From Opitutaceae bacterium EW11 (GTDB taxonomy: Bacteria > Verrucomicrobiota > Verrucomicrobiia > Opitutales > Opitutaceae): a DNA stretch of 64,000 bases. The first letter of the stretch is position 1. Each line of letters opens with the position of its first letter. The position numbers and the translations under genes are program-made. This document shows, piece by piece, positions 6,397-58,564 of this stretch. The DNA is taken from positions 124,001-188,000 of the forward strand of contig QAYY01000015.1 in assembly GCA_003054665.1 (NCBI GenBank). The letters are read 5' to 3'. The notes under the pieces are model-generated. The model was not told the DNA's origin. It worked only from the letters and a program-made list of their open reading frames with translations, and did not search any database.

Positions 6397-7776
6397 TCAA
6401 TTCGAGCGTTGGGCAACGCCATCCAGCATCTCGGCCGACCAACTCGCGCTGAGCGTCTTTTCCACGTCTCCGTTGCGAAGGACAATTTCCATGCGCCTCT
6501 CCGGTGTCTTGTCGGCGGAGGTCGCGACGCGCTTCACGTAGCTGAACTCCCCCGGGACGCGCCACATGGGAACACCGTGATACTGCTTGTCCGAGGCGGT
6601 CTGAATCAGCCTCGCGTCGCCGGTCGCAAGCGTGAGCACCGCCACTTCGCCTTTCAGCCCGCCAAAGACCACCTGAGTGCCGTCAGGGCTGACCTCGAAA
6701 AACGAGAGCGACTGCGGGATCTCGGGCTCGGCTCGCCGGGGGACCAGCCGCGACAAAGTCGCCTGGCGGCTGGGATCCGCCACGAACAACTGCTCGCGCG
6801 GCTCGTTGTTGAAGTCCGCCGCTGCGAGCGGGAGGGAAACCTCCGCAGCGTTGAAGAGAATGCGCCCGTCCTTCAGGCACCGCACGTGCGTGAGCGGGTT
6901 GAACAACAGCCCTGCAAGTTCCTCCGGTTTCTCCGCGACGGCGATGCGACCGTCGCGATCGAGAACCTGACGCCGGGCGAGCACAGCCAGCTCCACCGCG
7001 TCCTTTGCGGTGCTCGGCTGGGCCTGGATGTAGGCCAGGGACAAACCATCGTACGTCCAATCTGGATACCCGCTCGTCTGGGACGCAACCGCGACAGGCG
7101 CGGCGGAACCCTTAAGCGCCAGCAGTCGGAGCGCCGTGGTCTTCGGAGTCACGTCTTCGGCGGTAAACGCCAGCGCCGCACCGTCCGGAGAGGGGCGCAG
7201 GTCGATCAAAGTGCCGGCTCCGACGTGCCGAGTGCGATCCGCGATCACCCGGTCGCCCTCGATGTGGGCGGTCAGGATCTCGTACAGGTCGACGGAATCC
7301 TGCTGAAGCTCCTTCCAATCGTCCGGCGTCAGCTTGCTTCTTAACTCCTCGCCGTGGCGCTCGAGCAGGCAAAGCGCCACGGCGTTTCCGCTTCCCTCCC
7401 CCTCCCTCTTCAACGTGTCCCACTTGGGATCCGCCTGGAACGCCGACCACAGGCGCTCCGCCTTCTGCTCCACCACCGGCTGGTCCGCTCCCAACGCCCC
7501 GGCCAGTTCCTGCCAGCGGCTCGTCTCACGCCTTTTCGCCAGCACCAGATGCTGCGAGTCGCCTGCCCACGCGGCCGCGCGGACGCCGGGCACCTGCAGC
7601 GCCGAGAGGTGCCCGTTGGCGTCGCACAAATACAGTCCGTCACCGCCGACGACGGCGGCCCTGGCGCCGTCCGGAGACCAGACGACGCGTTTTTCCAGGC
7701 AGCCCGCCGCGAAGAGCAGCGAGCCGACAATCGCGCACACGGCGAACCGCCGGGCAAAGGAACGAAATGAATTCAT
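6397..7776 (-). CDS. Lipoprotein with TolB/WD40-like beta-propeller repeats, third gene of an ECF operon
   Basis: The product is a 459-aa predicted outer- or inner-membrane lipoprotein: MNSFRSFARRFAVCAIVGSLLFAAGC ends in a lipobox with the Cys at about 26. The rest has repeated blade motifs of the PD40/TolB type (VWSPDGARAAVV, DLRPSPDGAALAFT, EVSPDGTQVVFGG), indicating a beta-propeller. The start at 7776 is chosen from a GGAGG Shine-Dalgarno (about 7783-7788) and the signal peptide; the open frame continues much further upstream but only as a shadow of the anti-sigma gene. The ATG overlaps the anti-sigma stop (ATGA), so the two are translationally coupled. A sensor or ligand-binding role for the ECF pair is inferred from this coupling alone. 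Confidence 0.8.
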   Translation of the reverse strand: MNSFRSFARRFAVCAIVGSLLFAAGCLEKRVVWSPDGARAAVVGGDGLYLCDANGHLSALQVPGVRAAAWAGDSQHLVLAKRRETSRWQELAGALGADQPVVEQKAERLWSAFQADPKWDTLKREGEGSGNAVALCLLERHGEELRSKLTPDDWKELQQDSVDLYEILTAHIEGDRVIADRTRHVGAGTLIDLRPSPDGAALAFTAEDVTPKTTALRLLALKGSAAPVAVASQTSGYPDWTYDGLSLAYIQAQPSTAKDAVELAVLARRQVLDRDGRIAVAEKPEELAGLLFNPLTHVRCLKDGRILFNAAEVSLPLAAADFNNEPREQLFVADPSRQATLSRLVPRRAEPEIPQSLSFFEVSPDGTQVVFGGLKGEVAVLTLATGDARLIQTASDKQYHGVPMWRVPGEFSYVKRVATSADKTPERRMEIVLRNGDVEKTLSASWSAEMLDGVAQRSN

Positions 7777-8294
7777 TGTTTTTCCTCCAAATGGGGCAGC
7801 TTCACCGGCGAGTCCCAGCGAAGCCGATAGGGTTGATCTGATGTGACGGGGTTCTGAACGCCGGCGCGCGACGGCTGCGGAACGGTCCACAATGCGGACG
7901 TGCCTTGCGTGGGCAGCCTGGCCAGTACGGAGGCCGACGACGCCAGATCCGGAGGCTGCGGCATCGGTGCAGAACCATTCTCCCTCGGCGCGGCAAACCG
8001 CCCCGCCAGAAACCCGACGGTGACGCTGGCGGCCAGCGGCAGCCAAAGCCGGCGTGCTGCTCCGTTGAATACAGAATCGGGCGCTTTCCATCGAGGCAGG
8101 GCCGAAGGAGTGCCGGAGGGTGCCGGAACACGCATCGCCGCCCGGGCGAGTCCGGTCGTTTTGCCGGTGCGCTCCGCCTGCGCGGCGAGGTCCGGATGAT
8201 TTTCAAGGTAGGCGTCGAGGAGTTCGCCGACGTCTGGAGGCAGCTCGCCAAGAGCTCGGTCGACGATGAGCGATTTCAAGGTTTCAGGCTTCAT
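7773..8294 (-). CDS. Putative single-pass membrane anti-sigma factor without a zinc motif
   Basis: This 173-aa protein lies between an ECF sigma factor and a lipoprotein, overlapping both (11 bp with the sigma gene, 4 bp with the lipoprotein gene). It has an N-terminal cytoplasmic region of about 80 residues beginning MKPETLKSLIVDRALGELPPDV, one predicted transmembrane segment (RRLWLPLAASVTVGFLAGRFAA) and a proline-rich outer tail. That layout is the usual one for an anti-sigma factor. It has no cysteine at all, so it is not a zinc-binding (ZAS) type, and a redox-sensing mechanism through Cys is excluded. The anti-sigma call rests on position and topology, not on a recognised domain. Confidence 0.7.
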   Translation of the reverse strand: MKPETLKSLIVDRALGELPPDVGELLDAYLENHPDLAAQAERTGKTTGLARAAMRVPAPSGTPSALPRWKAPDSVFNGAARRLWLPLAASVTVGFLAGRFAAPRENGSAPMPQPPDLASSASVLARLPTQGTSALWTVPQPSRAGVQNPVTSDQPYRLRWDSPVKLPHLEEKQ

Positions 8295-49347: not shown

Positions 49348-50496
49348 GTGTCTCATCCGTCTCCTCACCCACTCCGCCGCGCGCTGACCGCGATTGTCCA
49401 ATGGATCGATGCCGACTACGCGCCCGGGGGCGCGACGGCGATGCGCAACGAGCCCGACAAGGTCGACCTCGTGCGCTGCATTCCCTTCATTTTCCTTCAT
49501 CTTGGCTGCCTCGGTGTCATCTGGGTCGGAGCAAGCCCCGTCGCGGTGGGGTCCGCGATCGCACTCTATTTCCTCCGGATGTTCGCGGTGACCGGGATCT
49601 ACCACCGCTATTTTTCCCACAAGACCTACAGCACGTCGCGGCTCGGCCAGTTTCTTCTGGCTCTCTGGGGCGGGACCACGGTCCAGCGCGGACCGCTCTG
49701 GTGGGCGTATCATCACCGCCACCACCACCAGCACTCCGACGAGCCGGAAGACGCTCACTCTCCGCACGTGCACGGCTTCTGGTGGTCGCACATCGGCTGG
49801 ATCACGAGTCGGCGCAATTTCCCCACCGACTACACCAAGGTGAAGGACCTCGCGAAGTTCCCGGAGCTCGTCTTTCTGAACCGCTTCGACGTAGTCGTGC
49901 CGATCGTTTTTGCGACCGCGGTGTTTTTCGTAGGAAGAGCCCTGGAGCATTTCGCCCCGCAACTCGGCACGAGCGGACCGCAGATGCTCGTGTGGGCGTT
50001 CTTCGTGAGCACGACGGCGCTGTTTCACGGCACCTCTTGCATCAACTCCATGGCGCACCTGATGGGCCGGCGTCGTTTCGCCACCTCCGACGATTCCCGG
50101 AACAGCTTTATCCTCGCGATCATCACCCTCGGCGAGGGCTGGCATAACAACCACCACCGCTACCAGAGTGCGACGCGCAACGGATTCTACTGGTGGGAAA
50201 TCGATCCCACCTACTACGGGCTGAAGCTTCTTTCGTGGACCGGATTCATTCGCGATCTCAAGCCGGTGCCCCAGTCCGTTCTCGACGAGGGCGCTCGCGC
50301 CGAGCACGCCGCTTCGGTTGCCGCCGCCCAAAAGGCTTCGGTCGTGCACCCCGAATATTCGGCCCTGAAAAAGGTCATGCCAGCTGCAGCCGCCATCGCG
50401 ATCGCAACGGTTCCCGTGGCGAATCATCACGCGGCTCCGCAGCCCCGGCCCGCCGTGCACCGCGACGCGACGGAAACCACGCAGGAACCGCAGTAG
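49348..50496 (+). CDS. Acyl-CoA (delta-9 type) fatty acid desaturase
   Basis: This 382-aa membrane enzyme introduces a double bond into acyl-CoA. The three His boxes of stearoyl-CoA desaturases are present: HRYFSH (86-91), HHRHHHQH (122-129) and GEGWHNNHHRYQ (about 260-275), together with four hydrophobic segments. The GTG at 49348 is used because the sequence before the first helix (WIDADYAPGGATAMRNEPDKVDLVRCIPF) is conserved in homologues; ATG 49441 would lose part of it. A C-terminal extension of about 90 residues is rich in Ala, Pro and His, longer than usual. It probably adjusts membrane fluidity. Confidence 0.92.
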   Translation: MSHPSPHPLRRALTAIVQWIDADYAPGGATAMRNEPDKVDLVRCIPFIFLHLGCLGVIWVGASPVAVGSAIALYFLRMFAVTGIYHRYFSHKTYSTSRLGQFLLALWGGTTVQRGPLWWAYHHRHHHQHSDEPEDAHSPHVHGFWWSHIGWITSRRNFPTDYTKVKDLAKFPELVFLNRFDVVVPIVFATAVFFVGRALEHFAPQLGTSGPQMLVWAFFVSTTALFHGTSCINSMAHLMGRRRFATSDDSRNSFILAIITLGEGWHNNHHRYQSATRNGFYWWEIDPTYYGLKLLSWTGFIRDLKPVPQSVLDEGARAEHAASVAAAQKASVVHPEYSALKKVMPAAAAIAIATVPVANHHAAPQPRPAVHRDATETTQEPQ

Positions 50497-52521: not shown

Positions 52522-53262
52522 CTATCGCCTGGCTTTCGGCCCACTCGCGAATTTCCGCAAATACTTCAATCCGACTTCGAAGTCGTTGGGCAGCTCGGCC
52601 CGGATTGTCACGGGCTCCCGCGTCACCGGGTGCCTCACGGTGAGTTCGCTCGCGTGCAATGCCAGTCGGGCAATCAGCGGCTTCTCGTCTGTGCGCCCCT
52701 TGTACCCGCGTTTGAGATCGGAGAGGAGAAGCTTGGTGTCGCAATTGCCGTAAAACGGGTCGTTCAGGATAGGCCACCCGCTGGATGCGAGGTGCACGCG
52801 AATCTGATGGGTCCGTCCGGTCTGCGGGCGGCATTCCAGCCAGGTGAATCGGCCGAAACGTTCGAGAACCTGAAACTCCGTCACGCTCGGTTTGCCCACC
52901 TTCCGAACCGGACACATGCGCCCCGGCTTTCCTTCGTCCTCCTTGAGAGGCATGTCCACGGTGAAGCCGTCGAGAGGCGGCGAGCCCACCACCAGAGCCA
53001 GGTACTTCTTGGCGACGGTCTTGCTCTGAAACTGGCCACTCAAGAAATCGAGCGCGGACTTGGTTTTCGCGCAGAGCAGCACTCCACTGGTGTCTGCATC
53101 GAGCCGATGGACGTTCGCCACGTCATGGCCCATTTTTTCGTGCACCATCCCCATCAGGTTTTCTCGGGTCTTGTCCCAACGATCCGGAGCCACAAGTAGA
53201 CCGCTCGGTTTGTCGAATGCGATCATCGTGTCGTCTTCGAAGATGACGGGGGGAAAGGCCAC
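52522..53262 (-). CDS. RluA-family 23S rRNA or tRNA pseudouridine synthase
   Basis: This enzyme isomerises uridine to pseudouridine in RNA. The RluA hallmarks are FEDDTMIAFDKPSGLLVAP, the catalytic Asp in NVHRLDADTSGVLLCAKT, and the C-terminal RPQTGRTHQIRVHLASSGWPILNDPFYG. No S4 domain is present. I place the start at GTG 53262 (VAFPPVIFEDD), where conservation begins; the open frame runs to GTG 53427, but that would leave only 11 bp to the divergent hydrolase gene and adds low-conservation sequence. Neither start has a convincing Shine-Dalgarno, so this is a boundary to treat as uncertain. The subgroup is not fixed by sequence. Confidence 0.9.
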   Translation of the reverse strand: MAFPPVIFEDDTMIAFDKPSGLLVAPDRWDKTRENLMGMVHEKMGHDVANVHRLDADTSGVLLCAKTKSALDFLSGQFQSKTVAKKYLALVVGSPPLDGFTVDMPLKEDEGKPGRMCPVRKVGKPSVTEFQVLERFGRFTWLECRPQTGRTHQIRVHLASSGWPILNDPFYGNCDTKLLLSDLKRGYKGRTDEKPLIARLALHASELTVRHPVTREPVTIRAELPNDFEVGLKYLRKFASGPKARR

Positions 53263-53438
53263 GTCGGGAGCTTGGAAAGCGAGACTTGAACCGCAAATCG
53301 TTTCACCGACAGTCGAATGATGGGAGCCATCATTGAGGGAACCGCCAAACGGATGCGCTTTCGTAAAATTCGAGTGACGCGCCGCTTTTGACTTTGCTTG
53401 TGCGCGAGCGCACGCCCCACTAGACACCTCTCCATTCT

Positions 53439-54554
53439 ATGCCCGCGCTGAGTTTTGCTCCCGCGTTCTCATTCCTGACGGCATTTAGCCGGCATCCAGC
53501 GGCACATCCTATACGCACGCTGATCAGGACCACGGAATACAAACTCAGGCCGCCGCGGCCGTTGCCCTTTCAGCCGTCGGTTCGGACCCGACAAGACCTT
53601 ATTCTCGCAGCGGGAAAAGTGGCCGCGGAAAAGGGCGCCAGCATCTTGCGAGAGCGCCGGACAGGGCCCGTCCCGACGATCGTCCTCGGCGGATTCGTGC
53701 CGGATGCAACCGAACAGGTATTTCTGCTCCGCGGTTTTCTCCTCAAGCACGGCAGCGTCTACTATATCAACTACCCGCGCCAGGGGTTCTCGATCGACTT
53801 GGTGATCGCGCAGCTCGACGACCTCGTCGAAGAGCTGACCACGCTTCATGGCCAACGTCCGGTGATTTTCTCCGTGAGTTTCGGCGCAGGCATCGTGCTT
53901 GAATGGCTGAAGCGCGTTCGCCGCGAAGGCCGGCAACTGAATCTTCAGGGCACCGTCTTGATCAGTCCGGTGGCATGCGTGGAGGACCTGCTCGTCCCCG
54001 GAGAGCCCAAGCCCACCACCCTGCTCGGACGGGCGTTGAAGCCGTATCTGGAAACCGAGACCCACATCGAGCCGGGGGTCATCGACAAGTCGCGCGCCAT
54101 CTTCACCAAAATGTTCGAGGCCGGAGCACAGAATCGAGAATCGCTTCGGGTCCTCATGACCAACGGCGAGCTCAAGCAACTGCATGAGGCGGTCATCGGC
54201 ACGATCCGCTCGATCGATTTCTCCGGCGCATGTGAACGCGTCCAGGCGCTTCGGCAGTTCGAAGCTCCCTCGAATTACTTCAGCCAGGAACTCCTGCCGT
54301 TGTCCGACGCTCCCTCTCTGATTCTGTATTCAGAAAAGGAAAGCGCCGTGATTACCGAGCAGTCGCCGACGCGGTCCGCGCTCGAGTCGGCCCATCGCGT
54401 CTATTTTCCCCGCAGCCACTACCGCGTGATCTCGAATCACCGCGGAAGCCCGGTGCAGCACGCGTCGCTGATTTTCCACTGCTTCAACTTCCTCCCGCCG
54501 ATCTCAGCGTTCTACAAACACGTCCGAACGGGCAAGCTGCTCCAGCTGGCCTGA
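53439..54554 (+). CDS. Putative alpha/beta hydrolase paired with a GH3-family enzyme
   Basis: This 371-aa protein has an alpha/beta-hydrolase-like core: a strand IVLGGFVPDATEQVFLLRGF, then SVYYINYPRQGFS, and the nucleophile elbow FSVSFGAGIVL with Ser147 as the likely nucleophile (the first Gly of GxSxG is replaced by Ser). The acid and base are probably DAPSLILYSEKES and a C-terminal HASLIFH or SHYR region. No signal peptide or transmembrane helix is evident. It lies 4 bp upstream of the GH3-family gene, so the two are surely one operon. The substrate is unknown; hydrolysis of an acyl-amino-acid or thioester related to the GH3 product is an inference. Confidence 0.7.
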   Translation: MPALSFAPAFSFLTAFSRHPAAHPIRTLIRTTEYKLRPPRPLPFQPSVRTRQDLILAAGKVAAEKGASILRERRTGPVPTIVLGGFVPDATEQVFLLRGFLLKHGSVYYINYPRQGFSIDLVIAQLDDLVEELTTLHGQRPVIFSVSFGAGIVLEWLKRVRREGRQLNLQGTVLISPVACVEDLLVPGEPKPTTLLGRALKPYLETETHIEPGVIDKSRAIFTKMFEAGAQNRESLRVLMTNGELKQLHEAVIGTIRSIDFSGACERVQALRQFEAPSNYFSQELLPLSDAPSLILYSEKESAVITEQSPTRSALESAHRVYFPRSHYRVISNHRGSPVQHASLIFHCFNFLPPISAFYKHVRTGKLLQLA

Positions 54555-54558
54555 CGCC

Positions 54559-56142
54559 ATGGCCGCTTTCTCGAAGCAGGTTCTCGCTTTCGGGGCAAAA
54601 ATCATGGCCGCGCGGGCAATGCGGCGAATGCGCGAGCCCGCCGCCGCCGCGCAGCAGCGAGCGTTCCGGGAGCTGTTGCAGGCGATGAGCCGCTGCCAGT
54701 ACGGCAAGAAGCACGGGCTGTCTCCAACGATCGAGTACGACCGATTTCGCGCGGAAGCGCCGGCCCAGACGTACGAGCAGTTCGCTCCGCTGATCGAAAA
54801 AGCCAAACGCGGGGACGCCGACGTGCTTTGGCCGGGTACTTGCCGGTACTACGCCGTCTCTTCGGGCACCACCGCTGGGCGCACGAAATATCTGCCGATC
54901 ACCGACGCGATGATCGCGCACTTCCGTCAGACCGGTCTCGACTCCCTCTTTTTCTACGCTTCTCGCACCCGCCGGTCCGACATCTTCAAAGGCAAACATC
55001 TCTTCCTCGGCGGTTCGACGACCCTGACAGAGATCGAAGAATCGAAGCCCTTCGTCGCCTTCGCGGGCGACCTCAGCGGCATCACCGCCCTGAACCTGCC
55101 GGGCTGGGCGGAACGCCATCTCTACGAACCAGGCGCCGATATCGCCCAACTCGGAGATTGGCCGGCCAAGATCAAAGCGATCGCGGATCGCACGCTGGAC
55201 CGCGACATTCGGGTGGTCGCCGGAATCCCGAGCTGGCTTTTGATCCTGGCGGAAGCGCTTCGCTCGCGCTCGGCTGCCGCGGGAAAGACGGTTTCGCATC
55301 TCCAGCAACTCTGGCCCAACCTCGAGTGCCTGATTCACGGCGGCGTTCCGATCGGCCCCTACGTGGAGGAGTTGCGCACCGCGTACGGTCCGCAGATCCG
55401 TTTCCATGAAGTGTACCCGGCTTCCGAGGCGTTCATCGCCGCGCAGGACGCCGAGCCGCACGACGGACTCCGCCTGCTCGCGGATGCCGGAGTATTTTAC
55501 GAATTCATCCCCCTGGCGGACTTCGACGAAAGCCGACTCGAATACCTCGGCACCAAGGCCGTGCCGGTCGAGGGAGTGCAGGCCGGCGTCGATTACGTGC
55601 TTCTGCTGACGACGCCCGCCGGTCTGTGCCGGTACGTCATAGGAGACGTCGTCCGCTTTGTATCCACCAATCCCCCACGTCTGATCTACGTCGGCCGCAC
55701 TCGTCTGCAGTTGAGCGCTTTCGGAGAGCACGTCATCGAAAAGGAGCTCACCGACGCCCTGCTGGGCGTCAGCCAGCGACATGGCTGGAGCATCGTGCAT
55801 TTTCACGTGGCCCCGCTTTTCGTGAACTCACTCGTGGGACAGAAACGCGGCCGGCACGAGTGGTGGATCGAGCTGAAGCCTCATTCCGCGGAGACACCGA
55901 CCGGCCCGATCCTCGCGGGCGAGTTGGACCTGGAACTGATTCGTTTGAATGACGACTACGAGGCCAAGCGGAAAGGCGGCGGGCTCGAGCCTCCGATTGT
56001 CCGGCTCGTCATGCCGGGCGTATTTGAACAGTGGATGCGCCAGCGCGGGAAGTGGGGCGGCCAGAACAAGATGCCTCGCTGTCGGAGCGATCGCGAAATT
56101 GCGGACGAGCTGGCGAAGATAGCACGGTTCGCCGACTCCTGA
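54559..56142 (+). CDS. GH3 family acyl-adenylating protein
   Basis: The 527-aa protein belongs to the GH3 (auxin-responsive promoter) family of the ANL adenylating superfamily, which in plants links jasmonate, auxin or benzoates to amino acids. ATP-binding motif 1 is VSSGTTAGRTK (SSGTT at 101-105), motif 2 is YPASE (286-290), and motif 3 is CRYVIGDVVRF (about 358-367). The hinge and C-terminal domain follow, with LSAFGEHVIEKELTDAL. All catalytic motifs look intact, so it should form acyl-adenylates. Bacterial members have no firmly known product. It is co-transcribed with an alpha/beta hydrolase (4 bp spacing), and ends before a long intergenic gap. Confidence 0.87.
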   Translation: MAAFSKQVLAFGAKIMAARAMRRMREPAAAAQQRAFRELLQAMSRCQYGKKHGLSPTIEYDRFRAEAPAQTYEQFAPLIEKAKRGDADVLWPGTCRYYAVSSGTTAGRTKYLPITDAMIAHFRQTGLDSLFFYASRTRRSDIFKGKHLFLGGSTTLTEIEESKPFVAFAGDLSGITALNLPGWAERHLYEPGADIAQLGDWPAKIKAIADRTLDRDIRVVAGIPSWLLILAEALRSRSAAAGKTVSHLQQLWPNLECLIHGGVPIGPYVEELRTAYGPQIRFHEVYPASEAFIAAQDAEPHDGLRLLADAGVFYEFIPLADFDESRLEYLGTKAVPVEGVQAGVDYVLLLTTPAGLCRYVIGDVVRFVSTNPPRLIYVGRTRLQLSAFGEHVIEKELTDALLGVSQRHGWSIVHFHVAPLFVNSLVGQKRGRHEWWIELKPHSAETPTGPILAGELDLELIRLNDDYEAKRKGGGLEPPIVRLVMPGVFEQWMRQRGKWGGQNKMPRCRSDREIADELAKIARFADS

Positions 56143-56491: not shown

Positions 56492-57259
56492 ATGATTCAA
56501 GCCAACAATACTGCCGTTGCCACCAGCCGAACCGACAGCGTTGTTCAGAGCCCCTCCAGCGAAACCGCGGAATTCGCGACCGATTCAGCCCGCGAAGCCG
56601 CGTACGACGCCGTCCTCATCCAGCGTTTCAACAGCGGCGATGAGGCTGCCTTCGTGGAGATCATGCAACGCTACCACGGTAAAATCTTCGGCCTTGCTCA
56701 CAATCTGCTGCGCAACGCGGCCGACGCCGAAGAGATTGCGCAGGATACCTTTATTCGAGCCCATCGCGGATTGGCCAATTTCCGCGGCGACTCGTCTTTG
56801 GCGACCTGGCTCTACCGCATCGCTCTGAACCTCTCCCGTAACCGTTATTGGTATTTCTTCCGCCGTCGCCGCCAGGATTCGGTCTCTCTCGAGCGGCCGC
56901 TCAGCGACGACTCGGATGCCACGTTCGCCGATTTCATCGCGGCCGAAGCGCAGAATCCGGTTCAAGAGACGGTCACAACGGAGTTCACCGATCTCATCGC
57001 CGCCTGCATGGAGAAATTGGATGCTCGCCACAGGGAAATCCTCACCATGCGCAACATCCTGAATCTTCCCTATGAGGAGATCGCCCGTGCGCTCCGCATC
57101 AACGTTGGCACGGTGAAGAGCCGCATTGCCCGGGCGCGCGAGAATCTCCGCAAGCTGCTCGCCGAAGCCGCTCCGGAATTCGATCCCGAGTCCGGCCCAA
57201 GCGATTTCTTCGTCAGCTCTCGCACGGCGTACGGCTGCCACGCGATCGCTTACGCCTGA
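56492..57259 (+). CDS. ECF-type RNA polymerase sigma factor without an adjacent anti-sigma gene
   Basis: The 255-aa protein has region 2 (ALIQRFN-like VLIQRFNSGDEAAFVEIMQRYHGKIFGLAHNLLRNAADAEEIAQDTFIRAHRGL, then LATWLYRIALNLSRNRYW) and region 4 (LDARHREILTMRNILNLPYEEIARALRINVGTVKSRIARARENLRKLL). It is longer than most ECF sigmas: an N-terminal stretch of about 38 residues and a C-terminal tail (about 225-255) flank the core. No anti-sigma factor follows, so control must be at another level or the tail may regulate it. The start at 56492 and a perfect-palindrome terminator after the gene show it is monocistronic. Confidence 0.92.
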   Translation: MIQANNTAVATSRTDSVVQSPSSETAEFATDSAREAAYDAVLIQRFNSGDEAAFVEIMQRYHGKIFGLAHNLLRNAADAEEIAQDTFIRAHRGLANFRGDSSLATWLYRIALNLSRNRYWYFFRRRRQDSVSLERPLSDDSDATFADFIAAEAQNPVQETVTTEFTDLIAACMEKLDARHREILTMRNILNLPYEEIARALRINVGTVKSRIARARENLRKLLAEAAPEFDPESGPSDFFVSSRTAYGCHAIAYA

Positions 57260-57454: not shown

Positions 57455-58564
57455 GTGCACCACGCCAAGCCGCTGAAGCTCACCCGGGAGGTCGCGCGAC
57501 GGTTCGTTCGACGCGCCTTGTGGCTCGAAACTGCATCGAACGATGTGCCAAGCGCACTGAGTCACCTCGGGTACATCCAGCTCGATCCGCTGAACGTCTG
57601 CGGTCGCATGCAGGATCTCATCCTCCGCAACCGCGTTGCAGGCTATGCCGAGGGCGATCTGCTGCGCGCAGTCCACGGGGAACCCATTGCTGAATCTCCC
57701 ATGGTTCGCAGGGCAGGTTTTGAACACTACATCCCCGGCCAGGGGATTCTCTGCGCTTGGCCGAAGGAGTCTTTTCGATTCATTCGCGCTCACATTGAGC
57801 TGGCCCACGCCCGCGGCACCCATCGCGCGATGTCCCGGGAGGAGGCGCAACTCGGCGAATTCATCCTCAAAGAATTGGCCGAGCGCGGACCGCTGACTTC
57901 CGACGACATCGAGCACGAAGGCAGGAGCGTGACGGCGTGGGGGTCCAGCGGTCGCACGGTGAAACTCGTCCTCGAACGTCTCTTCGGGAGAGGGCAGGTC
58001 CTGATTTCCTCCCGACGCGGCTTCCGCCGCGTCTACGACCTCGCCGAGCGGGTGATGCCCGAAGCCGGACCGAACGCAGCGCCGACGGAGGAGGAACTCT
58101 CGCGATGGCGCGCACTCCTGCCGGTCCGGCAGCGACGGTTGGTGGCGCTGAAAAAACGCGAACTGGAACTCATCGCCGATCTTGTTCAGCCCGTGAGCAT
58201 CGAGGGCGAATTCACGCTGTATTGCCTGCGCACCGACACGCCCCTCCTCGAAGAACCCGCAGACGAGGAGGAGCCGTCGCGACTCCAGCTGCTCGCACCG
58301 CTCGATCCATTGATCTACGATCGCAGAGTCACGCGCAGGCTCTGGAATTTCGATTTCACGTGGGAAGTTTACACGCCAGCCGCGAAACGGAAACGCGGCT
58401 ACTACTCGCTTCCGGTCCTCGCCGGGAACCAGCTGGTGGGCGATGTCGAACCGCGAGCCAACTGGAAAACCGGCCGCCTATCAGTGGCCTCGCGGCGGAT
58501 CCGCCGCGGTTTTCAAACCGCTGCGGCCGTAGCGGAATTGGCGGGCTTCCTAAACCTGCGGTAG
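57455..58564 (+). CDS. YcaQ/AlkX-like DNA glycosylase (HTH_42 family)
   Basis: This 369-aa protein is of the winged-helix HTH_42 (DUF1006) family, which includes AlkZ and YcaQ, glycosylases that excise bulky or crosslinked alkylated bases. The catalytic element is in LGYIQLDPLNV: Q42-L43-D44, the QxD form typical of YcaQ (AlkX), in place of QxQ of AlkZ. Further family features are RVAGYAEGDLLRAVHG, HEGRSVTAWGSSGRTVKLVLERLFGRGQVLISSRRGFRRVYDLAERV and LLAPLDPLIYDRRVTRRLWNFDFTWEVYTPAAKRKRGYYSLPVL. The start is a GTG at 57455 (an overlapping ATG is in another frame). It stands alone and lies downstream of the sigma gene's terminator. Confidence 0.88.
   Translation: MHHAKPLKLTREVARRFVRRALWLETASNDVPSALSHLGYIQLDPLNVCGRMQDLILRNRVAGYAEGDLLRAVHGEPIAESPMVRRAGFEHYIPGQGILCAWPKESFRFIRAHIELAHARGTHRAMSREEAQLGEFILKELAERGPLTSDDIEHEGRSVTAWGSSGRTVKLVLERLFGRGQVLISSRRGFRRVYDLAERVMPEAGPNAAPTEEELSRWRALLPVRQRRLVALKKRELELIADLVQPVSIEGEFTLYCLRTDTPLLEEPADEEEPSRLQLLAPLDPLIYDRRVTRRLWNFDFTWEVYTPAAKRKRGYYSLPVLAGNQLVGDVEPRANWKTGRLSVASRRIRRGFQTAAAVAELAGFLNLR

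Follow-up and report, generated by a model that had tools for sequence, protein, structure and literature searches.

The window analysed here is a stretch of 64,000 nucleotides from Opitutaceae bacterium EW11 (contig QAYY01000015.1, positions 124,001 to 188,000), and the system in question is a closely spaced pair of genes on its forward strand. The upstream gene encodes an alpha/beta-hydrolase-superfamily protein of a family without a name, hereafter HYD, and the downstream gene encodes a GH3 acyl-acid amido synthetase resembling OlsH of the planctomycete Singulisphaera acidiphila. The two genes are found together across the host's family, the Opitutaceae, and again in the Planctomycetota, and we propose, with a probability of about 0.58, that together they form a variant of the amino-lipid pathway known from OlsH and its partner OlsI.

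53439..54554, forward strand: HYD, alpha/beta-hydrolase-superfamily protein, family without a name; open reading frame (ORF) with ATG start, 371 amino acids (aa)
54559..56142, forward strand: GH3 acyl-acid amido synthetase, OlsH-like; ORF with ATG start, 527 aa; Pfam and NCBIfam matches
54552..54561, forward strand: HYD/GH3 junction, with the HYD stop codon, 4 nucleotides (nt) and the GH3 ATG
52522..53427, reverse strand: RluA-type pseudouridine synthase, divergent neighbour of the pair; Pfam and NCBIfam matches, synteny

GH3 and its relation to OlsH

A sequence-only reading of this DNA had placed the two genes 4 bp apart and described the GH3 protein as intact, with the motifs SSGTT, YPASE and YVIGD, and on both counts it was accurate. 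The three nucleotide motifs (I to III) lie at residues 101, 286 and 359, respectively, and the GH3, GH3_M and GH3_C domains of Pfam score 126.3, 55.7 and 62.4 bits, all above the cut-off of 23.6 that applies to each. The protein is also the one match to PF03321 found in its own genome. Within NCBIfam it matches a single model, NF052613 ('lyso-ornithine lipid synthetase OlsH'), over residues 7-525 with 374.5 bits and E 7.7e-112, and its identity to OlsH is about 35%. In the alignment S102 corresponds to OlsH S115 in motif I and S289 to OlsH S293 in motif II, so that both serines are kept. The plant GH3 enzymes of solved structure are distant relatives (7dk8, E 3.2e-22).

According to the 2025 report on S. 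acidiphila (PMC12493201), OlsH starts ornithine-lipid synthesis by joining a free fatty acid to ornithine at the expense of ATP, and mutation of S115 abolishes this activity. Enzymes of this type use free fatty acids, and neither acyl carrier protein nor coenzyme A. OlsI, the operon partner with an alpha/beta-hydrolase fold, is described in PMC12493201 as O-acylating the OlsH product. The same text reports OlsI outside the operon in the Cytophaga-Flavobacterium-Bacteroides (CFB) group and lists one verrucomicrobial GH3, from Nibricoccus aquaticus; a second partner family besides OlsI does not appear in the portion available. Among the records listed in literature searches, no study of OlsH or OlsI besides PMC12493201 was seen. 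From its similarity to OlsH we infer that the window GH3 is an N-acyl amino acid (lyso-amino-lipid) synthetase.

Conservation of the HYD-GH3 pair in Opitutaceae

HYD is a genuine partner of GH3. A single-sequence search of 288 genomes of the host's phylum returned HYD in 11, every one of them in the Opitutaceae, and HYD adjoins GH3 in all 11, the window's own genome included; a profile search of 387 genomes of the phylum gave 15 matches, one of them weak, and was again restricted to this family. Among 200 Opitutaceae genomes, HYD is matched in 79 and GH3 in 146, and all 79 HYD genomes carry GH3 (seven of the 79 have partial HYD matches only, including two relics and one weak match). The sequence-only reading had regarded the pair as a functional two-gene unit and had proposed a neighbourhood survey to see whether the hydrolase is a conserved partner. 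The survey bears out this view: in 70 of 72 cases a full-length Opitutaceae HYD is immediately followed by GH3 in the same orientation, with 5-233 nt between the matches (GH3 positions were listed for 131 of the 146 GH3 genomes). The two exceptions are G308, where the 1.4 kb between HYD and the contig end hold no match to GH3, which lies elsewhere, and G453, where GH3 precedes HYD at a distance of 771 nt. Several genomes of the family combine one HYD-linked GH3 with one HYD-free GH3. At L183:2645-7902 (genome G412), HYD is followed by two different GH3 genes in tandem, beside the RluA gene, an arrangement that is possibly ancestral to two GH3 lines.

Planctomycetota and three versions of the partner

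The pair extends to a second phylum. A profile search of 246 planctomycete genomes at E<=0.01 gave ten HYD matches, of which nine (E 1e-42 to 1e-21) were retained and one weak match (G631, E 0.008) was excluded. GH3 is present in all nine genomes. In five of them (G650, G682, G712, G727 and G763) HYD directly follows GH3, which is the opposite order to that of the Opitutaceae; in G666 the genes are 5 kb apart on opposite strands, and in G562, G613 and G740 they are on separate contigs. A GH3 tree, rooted by midpoint only and holding 26 of the 27 planctomycete genomes with a GH3 match at E<1e-70 (G588 was left out), unites the GH3s of all nine HYD genomes in one clade (support 100/100), and a branch with support 97/93 parts these and the Opitutaceae GH3s from the OlsI-linked OlsHs and the other planctomycete GH3s.

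The S. acidiphila locus (L080) was retrieved with a pattern built from the motifs printed in PMC12493201, and its ORF 7015-7965 is OlsI (NF052614, 469.9 bits against a cut-off of 385). OlsI stands beside GH3 in all five loci L080-L084, with phmmer scores of 397-726 bits to the S. acidiphila protein. In L081 and L082, which are contigs of metagenome-assembled genomes labelled Candidatus Kuenenia stuttgartiensis, the order is OlsI, an ORF of about 200 aa and OlsH, as in Singulisphaera. Among 25 further planctomycete GH3 genomes (S. acidiphila apart), HYD adjoins GH3 in five and an OlsI-like protein does so in four (L255, L258, L259 and L260), the latter being an alpha/beta-hydrolase that scores 47-50 bits to OlsI. 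An alpha/beta-hydrolase beside an OlsH-type GH3 thus recurs in three versions (OlsI, OlsI-like and HYD), and is not universal.

HYD as a separate hydrolase family

Matches of HYD to Pfam are confined to weak, sub-threshold hits to Abhydrolase_6 and Hydrolase_4 (19.7 bits against a cut-off of 26.3), and no NCBIfam model, that of OlsI included, matches at E<=1. One planctomycete homologue (L215) does pass Abhydrolase_3, with 25.6 bits against a cut-off of 25. A profile of 11 HYDs found no chain in the PDB at E<=1; with 24 HYDs, the strongest of the 14 listed chains was 3llc, whose match (E 2.4e-4) is limited to the elbow region.

Across 24 aligned HYDs from Opitutaceae and planctomycetes, S147, E301 and H341 are invariant, and so are D89, G149 and D183. 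The order nucleophile-acid-histidine is canonical as judged by alignment, not structure, and HYD may be said to carry a putative Ser147-Glu301-His341 triad; this conservation takes the place of the check in a predicted structure that the sequence-only reading had proposed. The nucleophile elbow reads SVSFG, in agreement with the S-x-S-x-G noted by the sequence-only reading, which went too far in calling it non-standard: two positions ahead of the nucleophile there is Gly in 14, Ala in six, Ser in three and Thr in one of the 24 HYDs, and because this position varies within the family the window's elbow is a mere local variant with no special meaning.

HYD was considered as an OlsI orthologue and this was ruled out by the lack of a match to NF052614 and by weak profile comparisons. 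Alignment of profiles with hhalign gave a probability of 2.8 for 11 HYD rows against one OlsI and of 45 for 20 HYD rows against five OlsIs. The profile alignment nevertheless pairs S147, E301 and H341 in exact register with the Ser, Asp and His of OlsI, and also with those of the planctomycete OlsI-like set; the acid residue is Glu in HYD and Asp in OlsI. By sequence, HYD is an alpha/beta-hydrolase family separate from OlsI. A search of 135 Opitutaceae genomes with the OlsI model at E<=1e-30 gave no match, and control genomes gave none either, which leaves the absence unproved. HYD was also considered as a mobile or viral gene, and no relative of it was found: none of 32 pattern-matched stretches from viral contigs encodes one, and plasmid records hold no HYD match. 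GH3 relatives do occur in ten plasmid records.

Probable loss of HYD and the motif I serine

In the Opitutaceae GH3 is often divergent beside the RluA gene, and the layout of a leftward RluA gene followed by rightward HYD, where present, and GH3 marks the locus in many relatives. The RluA gene is probably not a functional part of the HYD-GH3 unit. The gap between RluA and GH3 is mostly 1.1-1.5 kb with HYD and mostly 0.1-0.3 kb without it, and relics comprising the last 36-39 residues of HYD persist between the two genes in G344 and G345 (L186:3729-3836 and L187:3089-3205). At L161:1202-3032, about 1.8 kb separates RluA from GH3 with no HYD match. In a tree of Opitutaceae GH3s rooted on OlsH the deepest rows are all HYD-positive, and the best tree takes six changes. 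This tree omits loci L157, L160, L170, L188, L190 and L116-L145, and two of its rows were labelled HYD-positive by hand (L184, with reversed order, and L189, with HYD cut by the contig end). The distribution reads best as one old HYD-GH3 association followed by repeated losses of HYD.

HYD-free GH3s, meaning those without an adjoining HYD (some of their genomes have HYD with a second GH3), differ from HYD-linked ones in motif I. Each of the 20 HYD-linked GH3s in the family tree has serine at both motif places, as do both relic genomes and the five OlsHs, and motif I is kept in 19 of 19 additional HYD-linked GH3s of the family. Full-length HYD-free GH3s come from loci among L053-L061, L077, L078 and L146-L199. 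Their reading frames stay open, and all 55 compared retain the motif II Glu and the motif III Asp; the motif I serine is kept in 19 and gone in 36 (30 Ala, five Pro and one Thr), and 11 match the strict motif I pattern. None of the nine planctomycete GH3s linked to or co-occurring with HYD matches the strict pattern; in alignment, the eight that cover the region all show TSGT with a longer loop, and the ninth is cut by a contig end. The association of HYD with the motif I serine is strong in raw counts (20 of 20 against 19 of 55), but on five to six phylogenetically independent pairs it is not significant (median sign-test p of 0.5 for this serine and 0.25 for both serines); the trait changed in the same way in about two to three pairs and in the opposite way in none. 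Some other adenylating enzymes, such as FadD, tolerate Ala or Gly at the place of the motif I serine. Hence, we make no claim that the altered GH3s are inactive.

A proposed amino-lipid pathway and its alternatives

If the pair works as a variant OlsH-OlsI system, GH3 would activate a free fatty acid with ATP, as its homology strongly suggests, and amide-link it to an amino acid, for which ornithine is the first candidate, yielding a lyso-amino-lipid. HYD would then, like OlsI, attach another acyl chain to the hydroxyl group that the first one carries, a step suggested by its operon position and superfamily, and the end product would be a phosphorus-free acyloxyacyl membrane lipid. By analogy we infer that HYD is an O-acyltransferase in the slot of OlsI. 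HYD is almost never found apart from GH3 and HYD-free GH3s drift in motif I, which argues that HYD helps to make the product, not to remove it.

Several observations weigh against this proposal. The window GH3 reaches 374.5 bits with NF052613, far under the equivalog cut-off of 620, and the amino acid may therefore not be ornithine; among the records listed in literature searches, no report of ornithine lipids in the host group was seen. Taken alone, the window HYD falls under every Pfam cut-off, and a single-sequence structure prediction gave a mean predicted local distance difference test score (pLDDT) of 34.3, which is not trustworthy. The likeness between HYD and OlsI is remote, so that a shared reaction is suggested by genomic position. 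Finally, neither HYD nor an OlsI-like protein adjoins GH3 in 16 of the 25 further planctomycete genomes, and the many Opitutaceae GH3s without HYD imply that HYD is dispensable for some GH3 products.

Other explanations can be set against the same evidence. HYD might be a thioesterase or lipase that frees a (hydroxy) fatty acid for GH3, a role that would account both for the tight coupling and for the intact GH3 motifs that go with HYD. It also fits the behaviour of OlsH, which works on free fatty acid and yielded nothing inside E. coli cells; its authors suggest that these cells may have been short of free fatty acid (PMC12493201). We nevertheless consider it unlikely, as the available part of that report describes no such feeder and the planctomycete OlsH has the O-acyltransferase OlsI in that very slot; besides, many GH3s occur without HYD. 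The hydrolase fold and putative Ser-Glu-His triad would suit an enzyme that hydrolyses the amide or ester made by GH3 and so adjusts how much N-acyl amino acid is present as a signal or store. In plants, separate hydrolases do reverse GH3 conjugation. This was the make-and-break scheme suggested by the sequence-only reading, and it now appears distinctly improbable: the characterised analogue OlsI is a biosynthetic O-acyltransferase (PMC12493201), and loss of motif I in HYD-free GH3s is the opposite of what one would expect if HYD merely removed the product.

It is also conceivable, at rather long odds, that GH3 uses substrates other than a fatty acid and an amino acid, that HYD modifies the resulting product and that the likeness to OlsH is mechanistic only. 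The low score obtained with the OlsH model and the expectation of the OlsH authors that other bacterial GH3s use different amino acids (PMC12493201) lend it some weight, and the full-length similarity, the shared motifs and a two-gene design like that of OlsH and OlsI speak against it. A chance neighbourhood of two genes with no joint function can virtually be dismissed. No point in its favour was found; the adjacency is conserved in two phyla and in both gene orders, GH3 accompanies HYD in 79 of 79 (seven with partial HYD) and nine of nine HYD genomes, and, short of artefact, the survey contradicts it.

The amino-lipid proposal admits a bolder extension, which we put forward tentatively and would sooner doubt than defend. 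HYD may be a new family of alpha/beta-hydrolase-fold acyltransferases that independently took or kept the slot of OlsI, and would then define a second GH3-dependent amino-lipid pathway, perhaps not based on ornithine, in at least two phyla, with GH3s that lack HYD leaving the usual adenylation chemistry and being put to new use. The repeated absence of HYD together with the change in the GH3 motif is a natural experiment on the role of GH3, and the locus makes it possible to ask whether membrane-lipid O-acyltransferases arose more than once from alpha/beta-hydrolase folds.

Neighbouring genes

Some 3 kb before the pair lies a fatty acid desaturase gene (49348-50496), followed by a DUF2062 gene; the desaturase has a match in none of the 37 other loci compared. 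Downstream of the pair there is an ECF-type (extracytoplasmic function) sigma factor gene (56492-57259), followed by a gene for an AlkZ-like DNA glycosylase (57455-58564).

Comparison with known systems

HYD shares its nucleophile elbow and Ser-acid-His order with generic alpha/beta hydrolases (Abhydrolase_6, Hydrolase_4 and PDB 3llc), but no named family fits it and the HYDs of the Opitutaceae have an N-terminal segment of their own. Plant GH3 amido synthetases such as JAR1 and GH3.12 have the N, middle and C domains of GH3 in common with the window GH3, which differs from them in being distant, bacterial and encoded beside a hydrolase gene; the OlsH model gives it a much higher score than plant GH3s do, on scores that do not share one scale. 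The OlsBA and OlsF ornithine-lipid synthases resemble the pair in the predicted product, an acyloxyacyl amino-lipid, and are unrelated as enzymes. The N-acyltransferase domain Acetyltransf_5 (PF13444), carried by OlsB and OlsF, has no match in the host genome (a control search matched 2 of 14 genomes), so no route of the OlsB or OlsF type was found there. In this genome without a PF13444 match, the HYD and GH3 genes are candidates for the synthesis of a phosphorus-free lipid.

The closest parallel is OlsH-OlsI of S. acidiphila. Both systems pair a GH3-like synthetase with an alpha/beta-hydrolase-superfamily protein in an operon, and the window GH3 shares with OlsH its GH3 domains, its motifs and the essential serine. 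They differ in that S. acidiphila has the OlsG methyltransferase gene between the two, which the window pair lacks, and in that the window GH3 stays below the equivalog cut-off and HYD comes from another alpha/beta-hydrolase family. Amino-lipid synthesis by a bacterial GH3 and an alpha/beta-hydrolase partner is already known from one paper (PMC12493201), and the statement of the sequence-only reading that such systems are poorly described outside plants has been overtaken by that work. The 2025 description of GH3-dependent amino-lipid synthesis concerned one planctomycete; with the present locus, the two-gene design reaches the Opitutaceae and further planctomycetes, and what is added is a second hydrolase-type partner family, as yet without a name, for OlsH-type GH3 enzymes.

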